Shown one piece after another: positions 6,600 to 52,644 of a stretch of DNA of 64,000 nucleotides. This stretch comes from Methanobrevibacter olleyae (lineage in GTDB: Archaea; Methanobacteriota; Methanobacteria; Methanobacteriales; Methanobacteriaceae). The notes below the pieces were generated by a model that did not search any database, had not been told where the DNA came from, and saw only the letters and a list, made by a program, of their open reading frames with translations. The DNA lies in contig NZ_FOTL01000002.1 of the NCBI RefSeq assembly GCF_900114585.1, positions 1 to 64,000 of the forward strand, read 5' to 3'. A program made the translations under genes and the position numbers. The first letter of the stretch is position 1. The number at the start of each line of letters is the position of its first letter.

Positions 6600-9010
<2,411 letters not shown>

Positions 9011-9150
9011 ATGAAAATTCTAAACTTAGTTTTTGGAGTTATGATATGAAAATTCTAAACTTAGTTTTTGGAGTTATTATATGAAAATTCTAAACTTAGT
9101 TTTTGGAGTTATTATATGAAAATTCTAAGCTTAGTTTTTGGAGTTATTAT
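9011..9150 (+). repeat. Four tandem 35-bp copies of a start region, each a leader-peptide frame
   Basis: Copies start at 9011, 9046, 9081 and 9116 and run into the true gene start at 9151. Each holds ATGAAAATTCTAA, then a TTTTGGAG ribosome binding site seven bases before the next ATG. Each copy encodes a 12-residue peptide, MKILNLVFGVII or a one-residue variant, whose TGA overlaps the next ATG as ATGA. The frames are 9011-9049, 9046-9084, 9081-9119 and 9116-9154, the last overlapping the downstream gene. This arrangement would allow stepwise coupled translation. Confidence 0.85.
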
Positions 9151-9699
9151 ATGAAAATTCTAATATCAAATCTAAAAGGAAAAGAACTTTTAGATATAGC
9201 TATGAAAAATAGAATAGATAAATTAATATCTGTTTATACAAATTACAATGAAACAAGCTTACTTGATCAGTACATGACTAAAGAAAACATTAAAATAAGT
9301 ACTACAAATGCAATTGAAGCTTCAAAACAATTAACAGATATAATAAGGCCTTCTAAAGAAGATAATGAAATCTATGTAGCTACAGATGGAAACTTTTTAG
9401 GATCTATCTTAAACTTTGTAGCAAATAAAGAAGGAGTAGATTATATTTACTATTGTTTTAATAATCAAACTATCCAAATGCCTAGATTAAGTATAAATTT
9501 ATCTAAAACTAAATTAAAAATCCTTAAAACACTTGCAGAGTCAGAACAAACTGCAATATTAATTGGAAAAAATGTTGGAATTTCAAGAGCGATGGTTTAT
9601 AAACATATTAATATTTTAATGGAAGATGGCTTAGTAGGTCAAACCAAACAATATGAAAAATATTACCTAACAAACGCAGGTAAAATGGTGATAATTTAA
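9151..9699 (+). CDS. Possible CARF/Csa3-like winged-helix regulator
   Basis: 182 residues. The N-terminal ~110 residues look like a Rossmann-like alpha/beta domain (MKILISNLKGKELLDIAMKN; ISVYTNYNE; NEIYVATDGNFLGSILNFV), which recalls the sensor half of Csa3/CARF regulators. The last ~65 residues form a winged helix (KILKTLAESEQTAILIGKNV, then SRAMVYKHINILMEDGLV). ATG 9151 was chosen over an upstream in-frame TTG because GGAG lies seven bases before it. No CRISPR array or cas gene is in the window, so the CARF link is tentative. Translation may depend on the four upstream leader frames. Confidence 0.6.
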   Translation: MKILISNLKGKELLDIAMKNRIDKLISVYTNYNETSLLDQYMTKENIKISTTNAIEASKQLTDIIRPSKEDNEIYVATDGNFLGSILNFVANKEGVDYIYYCFNNQTIQMPRLSINLSKTKLKILKTLAESEQTAILIGKNVGISRAMVYKHINILMEDGLVGQTKQYEKYYLTNAGKMVII

Positions 9700-50529: not shown

Positions 50530-52644
50530 ATGATTAATGATTTGAATAAAATTGTTATAGTGTTTTTATTTTTAATTTTTTTATCTATTTCGGCTGTCTC
50601 AGCACAAGAGAATACAAGCCCTGAAATAGGTTTAAATGAAAACATAGAAACCATAGATGCAGAAACAGCAGAGGAAAAGATCAATCTTGGAACCGGTGAT
50701 GATAGTGCAGTAGCTTCAGAGTCTGGTAAAGAAGATGAAGTCAATCTTATAATGAATGAGGATAACTTAAAAGGTACAGGATCATCATTCAAAGATTTAC
50801 AAGAATTAATCGACAATACAGGTGTGAATAACATATTAACTCTAGATAAAGATTATGTTTATTCTGCTGGTGATTCAGAGATAGTTATTACTAAACCCAT
50901 AACTATTGATGGTAAAAACCATGTTATTGATGGAAAATTATCAACAAGAATACTCAATATAACTGGCAATTATGTCACATTAAAAAATATAAAATTCATA
51001 AACGCCAATAACACTCATGATGATTATGGTGGTGCTATCTATTGGAAAGGAACTAATGGTAATATAATCAACTGTTCTTTTGTCAATAACCATGCAAAGT
51101 ATGATGGTGGTGCTGTTTATTGGTATGGTGCTAATGGTAATTTAAAGGATTGTTCTTTTGTTAATAACCATGCTAATGATTATTATGGTGGTGCTGTTTA
51201 TTGGTATGGTGATAATGGTAATTTAAGTGCTTGTTCTTTTGCCAATAACCATGCAAAGTATGATGGTGGTGCTGTTTATTGGTATGGTGCTAATGGTAAG
51301 TTAAGTGCTTGTTCTTTTGTTAATAACCATGCTAATGATTATTATGGTGGTGCTGTTTATTGGAGTGGTGTTAATGGTGTTTTAAGTGCTTGTTCTTTTG
51401 TTAATAACCATGCTAACAATGATGGTGGTGCTGTTGATTGGAGTGGTGATAATGGTGTTTTAAGTGATTGTTCTTTTGTTAATAACCATGCTAACAATTA
51501 TGGTGGTGCTGTTGATTGGTGGGGTGATTATGGTGTTTTAAGTGATTGTTCTTTTGTTAATAACACTGTTAATCAGTATGGTAATGCTATTTATTTGAAT
51601 ACAAATACTACTAATGTATATTATTCTTCTTTTAGCATTTATCGCCCTAAAAATACAGCAGTGGTCAAAGTTAATAATCTAATCTACTACAATAATAGTA
51701 CTTATGGGGTTGAATATCAGGAAAAGGGTAAGCCAAGTCATTATGGTTTTATAAATGATGGTTATGTTACTTTTTATGATTTAGACAACGAAAAACACAA
51801 TATTGAAATGAGATTGGATAAAGATGGTAGCAAGTTTACTAATTATATAATTATAACTGGTGATTCTTACTTAAGTGCTGGTAATGTTTCTATGTTTTAT
51901 AATGATGGTACTAAATACACTTTAAAGCTAACAGATTATAAAGGAAACCCTTTAATAAATCAAAATGTCCAAATAATTATTGGAAGTGCAAAATACACTA
52001 TAAAAACAGATATAAGAGGATATGCAACACTAACCATTAAACAGAAAGCTGGAAAATACAATATTGTTGCTAGTTTTAATGGTAATAGTGAGTATGGTCC
52101 AGATAATATTGTAAGTACTTTAAGAATTTTAGATTCACCTATAACAAAGAATAAAAACCGTAAGATCTATTTTGGTGGAAGATTTAAAGTGCAAATAATA
52201 AATGTATATGGTAAGCATGTTGGTGCTGGAAAAACAGTTAAATTCACAATAGCTGGAAAAACATACAACATAAAAACAGACAAGAATGGTTATGCAAGCT
52301 TAAAAATAAGACTAAAGCCAAGAGCCAAAAAGTATACAATAACAACAAAATACGGTAAATTTATCAAAAAGAATAAAATCACTGTTAAACCTGTTTTAAC
52401 TGTTAAAACTATTGTAATGAAAAAAGGAAAGAGAATCAAATTCTATGTTAAGCTGATAAACACTAAAGGAGAACCACGAGCTAAAAAGAGAATAATATTT
52501 AGATTTGATGGAAAAAAATATAAAATCAAAACCAATAAAAACGGAATTGCAACACTAAAAATCAAATACCTAAGAAAAGGCAAACACAGGATTTACACAC
52601 AATACGGTAAAGCAAAAATAAAAAACACAATAAAAATTAAATAA
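50530..52644 (+). CDS. Adhesin-like protein with beta-helix and Ig-like repeats
   Basis: 704 residues, secreted. A signal peptide (IVIVFLFLIFLSISAVSA) is followed by an acidic linker (30-85). A parallel beta-helix region (about 90-380) has near-identical ~32-residue repeats of the type CSFVNNHANDYYGGAVYWYG. Two or three Ig-like/Big domains follow (LKLTDYKGNPLINQNVQI; VKFTIAGKTYNIKTDKNGYA; KIKTNKNGIATLKIKYLRKG). The C-terminus is very basic and has no membrane anchor. It is probably bound to pseudomurein or partner cells, as for other methanogen adhesins; this is inference. Confidence 0.9.
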   Translation: MINDLNKIVIVFLFLIFLSISAVSAQENTSPEIGLNENIETIDAETAEEKINLGTGDDSAVASESGKEDEVNLIMNEDNLKGTGSSFKDLQELIDNTGVNNILTLDKDYVYSAGDSEIVITKPITIDGKNHVIDGKLSTRILNITGNYVTLKNIKFINANNTHDDYGGAIYWKGTNGNIINCSFVNNHAKYDGGAVYWYGANGNLKDCSFVNNHANDYYGGAVYWYGDNGNLSACSFANNHAKYDGGAVYWYGANGKLSACSFVNNHANDYYGGAVYWSGVNGVLSACSFVNNHANNDGGAVDWSGDNGVLSDCSFVNNHANNYGGAVDWWGDYGVLSDCSFVNNTVNQYGNAIYLNTNTTNVYYSSFSIYRPKNTAVVKVNNLIYYNNSTYGVEYQEKGKPSHYGFINDGYVTFYDLDNEKHNIEMRLDKDGSKFTNYIIITGDSYLSAGNVSMFYNDGTKYTLKLTDYKGNPLINQNVQIIIGSAKYTIKTDIRGYATLTIKQKAGKYNIVASFNGNSEYGPDNIVSTLRILDSPITKNKNRKIYFGGRFKVQIINVYGKHVGAGKTVKFTIAGKTYNIKTDKNGYASLKIRLKPRAKKYTITTKYGKFIKKNKITVKPVLTVKTIVMKKGKRIKFYVKLINTKGEPRAKKRIIFRFDGKKYKIKTNKNGIATLKIKYLRKGKHRIYTQYGKAKIKNTIKIK
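51061..51560 (+). repeat. Internal ~96-105-bp repeats of the adhesin
   Basis: Seven or so near-identical DNA repeats containing TGTTCTTTTGTTAATAACCA and GGTGGTGCTGTTTATTGG encode the beta-helix turns. High DNA identity, including silent positions, indicates recent expansion or gene conversion. Confidence 0.85.

Follow-up and report, generated by a model that had tools for sequence, protein, structure and literature searches.

The beginning of a regulator gene of the gut methanogen Methanobrevibacter olleyae lies at the downstream end of a tandem array carrying four short reading frames, each chained to the next one and the last one to the gene itself. The question raised by this locus is whether such an arrangement represents a selected device for adjusting the synthesis of the regulator, or belongs to the ordinary satellite-like arrays of the genome. 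The answer depends on the following features of the window, i.e., the stretch of 64,000 nucleotides from contig NZ_FOTL01000002.1 that was analysed:

8858..8872, + strand: conserved, gene-specific upstream element GGAAAANAAAGTGCC (exact-match search, orthologue alignment)
8900..8914, + strand: candidate TATA region AAATAATTTTATATT (TATA matrix)
8990..9163, + strand: 35-bp tandem array, 5.0 copies (Tandem Repeats Finder)
8990..9010, + strand: 5' partial copy with CGAAC where GGAG would be expected, leaving the first frame without a Shine-Dalgarno (SD) site
9011..9049, + strand: minicistron 1, peptide MKILNLVFGVMI
9046..9084, + strand: minicistron 2, peptide MKILNLVFGVII, GGAG at 9035
9081..9119, + strand: minicistron 3, peptide MKILNLVFGVII, GGAG at 9070
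9116..9154, + strand: minicistron 4, peptide MKILSLVFGVII, GGAG at 9105; ends in a TGA that overlaps the regulator start at 9151
9140..9143, + strand: GGAG site serving the true start at 9151
9151..9699, + strand: regulator gene of 182 amino acids, with a C-terminal winged helix (HTH_5, ArsR type) and a weak, sub-cutoff Csa3 match (Pfam, NCBIfam, orthologues)

The array has a period of 35 and consists of units with 96% matches and without indels, and the sequence ATGAAAATTCT occurs exactly at positions 9011, 9046, 9081, 9116 and 9151. These five ATGs at 35-bp steps bear out the statement of an earlier sequence-only reading that a ribosome binding site (RBS) and a start codon have been tandemly duplicated. 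Each of the first four ATGs opens a 12-codon frame whose TGA shares an ATGA with the next ATG, which agrees with the four chained 12-residue peptides of that reading, and only two sequence positions vary among the four minicistrons. The last frame, as had also been proposed, ends in the ATGA that contains the true start of the regulator. A GGAG had been assigned to every unit ahead of a start; it occurs at 9035, 9070, 9105 and 9140, 11 nt ahead of the starts 9046, 9081, 9116 and 9151, respectively, but not ahead of 9011. The 12-codon frames ending in ATGA result from a unit of the GGAG-7 nt-ATG type, from a second codon of the gene starting with A, and from the fact that 35 equals 2 modulo 3. 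From the same period it follows that gain or loss of whole units preserves the ATGA chain and that this phase is an outcome expected by chance in one case out of three, two points which the sequence-only reading had put forward correctly.

The C-terminus of the regulator matches Pfam HTH_5 with 29.6 bits, over the cutoff, and its match to the Csa3 CARF family (NCBIfam TIGR01884) reaches 38.3 bits, under the cutoff of 60.2. A profile search of the PDB yielded weak matches alone, mostly with winged-helix regulators, and an AlphaFold model was set aside as unreliable (mean pLDDT 44.7). Orthologues are present in 13 of 19 Methanobrevibacter genomes, own genome included. Position 9151 is considered as the true start because the eleven full-length orthologues share the N-terminus MKILISNLKGK or MRILISNLKGK aligned with it, one group being slightly changed after that. 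An in-frame TTG at 9103, inside the array, could lead gene callers to extend the regulator by 16 residues; this start was rejected since the orthologues begin at the ATG.

Upstream of the array, the element GGAAAANAAAGTGCC has no other exact match in this genome. It precedes the TATA candidate by about 30 bp and is also found upstream of the orthologous gene in relatives; almost every gene-bearing genome of the genus contains one exact match, located upstream of this gene. The element is a likely gene-specific control site or small RNA. The candidate TATA region at 8900-8914 scores 6.4 with a small matrix built from six tRNA promoter sites of the genus, and is the most consistent placement of this matrix: once the insertion is removed it lies at about -88, a position where several orthologues also possess TATA-like sites, some of them weak. 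No TATA-like box was detected by the same matrix in the units of the array, the best of which scores below zero (-2.5). Because the units are devoid of such a box and the best promoter candidate lies upstream, the array is probably located in the transcribed leader; a start near 8935 would place all of it there, and the spacing of the core promoter would then be unaffected by the number of units.

The 35-bp array is missing from all eleven full-length Methanobrevibacter orthologues, each of which has a single start. The upstream DNA of the eight aligned orthologues nevertheless matches well, with GGAAAANAAAGTGCC and a block ahead of the start but without array. The distance from GGAAAANAAAGTGCC to the start is about 132 bp in most orthologues, 177 in a M. 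ruminantium-like genome (G002) and 278 in another genome (G012), as compared to 279 at the array-bearing locus. Judged from these alignments, the array is a lineage-specific insertion, since the eleven orthologues lack it, in a leader of varying length, and the length of this leader is not constrained because it varies among the array-free orthologues.

As a repeat, the 35-bp array far exceeds what chance would produce, but tandem arrays are abundant in this genome. In sampled stretches totalling 464 kb (L030-L049), 404 arrays were counted; the 130 that have a period of 15 or more and a match of 90% or higher are distributed as 52/33/45 over periods of 0, 1 and 2 modulo 3, without any clear bias. 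The sampled G+C content, 27.1%, is close to the 26.9% reported for M. olleyae YLM1 (PMC4824261). M. ruminantium and M. olleyae are listed among the archaea richest in satellites, and the long-repeat satellites of M. ruminantium are mutually unrelated (PMC6749651). A coding array at 51019-51564 has a 78-bp period, as does a satellite family attributed to M. olleyae (PMC6749651). The 35-bp array itself was found only once in the own genome, where all other matches are short and weak, which led to the rejection of a dispersed repeat family, and no copy of the exact unit pattern was found in viral contigs. A known RNA element was similarly rejected, as an Rfam search gave no match. No description of a tandem RBS and start codon array was found in a partial library of the literature.

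When 114 mostly noncoding arrays were randomly placed in noncoding DNA, 12.8 were expected to cover a called start, and only one, the present array, actually does so. High-identity arrays covering starts thus appear to be purged by selection, the 35-bp array being a survivor. A wider survey, covering 2.06 Mb and 1,494 ORFs not shorter than 100 amino acids, revealed tandemly copied starts at three more genes (periods 21, 58 and 30), and one more, with a period of 52, was obtained when 139 genomes belonging to the family were scanned for the pattern. In scans allowing a GGAG-to-ATG spacing of 6 and 8, no further obvious tandem copy of RBS and start was seen by eye at a gene start. The 58-bp array, 2.7 copies long, covers the RBS region and the first codons of a 211-codon gene in a M. 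ruminantium-like genome (L056, - strand, near 2207), a putative phosphopantetheinyl transferase by resemblance. The 52-bp array is a two-copy duplication of GGAG and start codon in another genus of this family (L100, 969-1050), followed by a gene judged from its translation alone as dTDP-glucose dehydratase-like. Short upstream frames exist in all four of these other cases and ATGA linkage in none of them, so that the ATGA phase of the present array, one case in a small set of five, fits the chance expectation of one in three.

The sequence of the array suggests how it was formed. The 5'-flank sequence AAGCTTAG is found again at the junction within unit 4, units 1-3 carry AAACTTAG instead, and TATGAT precedes the start both in the 5' partial copy and in the copy after it, which suggests a first duplication joined at a short AA and followed by further copying of units. 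Replication slippage would have tandemly copied the RBS, the start codon and the first four codons of the regulator gene, adding one array to the genome's ordinary satellite-like population. Re-initiation at ATGA is functional in an archaeon (PMC6728339). Some ribosomes would probably initiate at the copies preceded by GGAG, halt at ATGA and restart, and others would start directly at the last site, with a likely net change in the basal translation of the regulator that is tolerated rather than selected. In our opinion a recent, lineage-specific slippage satellite of this kind, covering the start region and probably affecting translation to some degree, is the probable explanation of the locus.

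The idea of a tuned or selected device, as had been envisaged from the sequence, is not supported: the array is absent from the orthologues, and the other copied starts show no preference for ATGA. Phase variation in its usual sense is excluded: the frame of the regulator begins in the last copy whatever the number of units, so that copy number never shifts it, and gain or loss of units could tune expression but not switch it by frame. Only 14% of single substitutions would break a unit and few substitutions have occurred, which gives a comparison of the frames no power to reveal selection on the peptides; evidence of selection on the array was not seen. A regulatory leader peptide also finds little to sustain it, as the small frames are absent in orthologues, give no Rfam match and contain no codon run of the attenuation type.

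The most substantial rival to the slippage satellite is a translational coupler tunable by copy number, in which the folded last ribosome site would become accessible only when ribosomes translate the unit before it, and the number of units would set expression. Folding predictions for a 100-nt context leave the SD of the true start 7% and its ATG 0% unpaired, versus 39-71% and 23-84%, respectively, in the eleven orthologues, and the minimum free energy around the start is -18.7 kcal/mol versus -3.6 to -6.9. All four GGAG sites are predicted to be paired in the longer leader. As in termination-reinitiation, each stop shares an ATGA with the following start and an SD lies inside the upstream frame; this mechanism operates in Haloferax volcanii, where its dependence on SD is variable (PMC6728339). 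The 12-codon frames also exceed the minimum of 8-10 codons at which upstream frames boost translation in E. coli when they carry a ribosome site close to the start of the target (PMC13255528). Ribosomes on one unit would plausibly open the next site and re-initiate in a coupled manner. Against the coupler, however, a 180-nt context leaves 20% of the SD and 34% of the ATG open, and the array is neither conserved nor recurrent at other genes. The fold of the whole leader, with z = -4.45 against simple shuffles, was rejected as a sign of selected structure, for repeated shuffled units fold at least equally well in 40 of 200 trials. Since this control removes the signal, the predicted structure would arise from the repetition itself, and it may nevertheless affect translation. 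Such a coupler consequently seems unlikely, and its more elaborate form, a natural serial coupler where four near-identical minicistrons would each open the next site and the number of repeats would set the dose of regulator without ever breaking the frame, is quite improbable. Some observations also weigh against the slippage satellite: arrays covering starts are depleted, so that this one persisted where most seem to be removed, and the structure at the last start is clearly unlike that of the orthologues, which makes an effect-free array unlikely. With one genome per species compared, selection or variation in copy number may still play a part.

Two other readings concern the DNA rather than its translation. 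The sequence of 174 bp made of near-identical 35-bp units would be difficult for short reads, and the array could be real with a wrong number of units; yet TATGAT, in the 5' partial copy and before the second start, and AAGCTTAG in unit 4 anchor both ends, and an assembly error of this type appears very unlikely. Tandem arrays that precede regulator genes can serve as binding sites, and each unit might accordingly bring a promoter or a protein binding site, the small frames being incidental. Duplication of a promoter was rejected for units without TATA-like sequence, their scores standing well apart from that of the 8900-8914 candidate, and the unit sequence is missing from the orthologues, which leaves promoter or operator multiplication scarcely probable.

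With respect to known systems, the array shares with attenuation leader peptides the occurrence of short frames ahead of a gene, but differs from them by the absence of a diagnostic codon run, of an Rfam match and of conservation. It resembles the archaeal ATGA termination-reinitiation pairs (PMC6728339) in its 4-nt overlap and in the SD located within the upstream frame; those are native overlapping gene pairs, whereas the upstream frames of the array are four near-identical 12-codon frames, apparently born by duplication, whose coupling is putative. Similarly, like the upstream nonsense ORF boosters (PMC13255528), it places short meaningless frames with an internal ribosome site close before the target start, except that the boosters are engineered, act in E. 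coli and use one frame, whereas the array is natural, archaeal and has four in series. If tunable, it would represent a natural counterpart to these boosters and a frame-safe contingency locus acting at the level of translation in an archaeon. In its 96% identity, its absence from orthologues and its confinement to one locus, it behaves as a satellite array, and with the satellites of Methanobrevibacter (PMC6749651), a genus of high satellite density, it shares species specificity, a unit sequence unrelated to those of other arrays, a scattered occurrence and a period above 30 nt. Unlike them, it covers a ribosome binding site and a start codon; it exemplifies how slippage can make chained small ORFs that seem designed, and calls for caution in the annotation of small ORFs and leader peptides in repeat-rich genomes.
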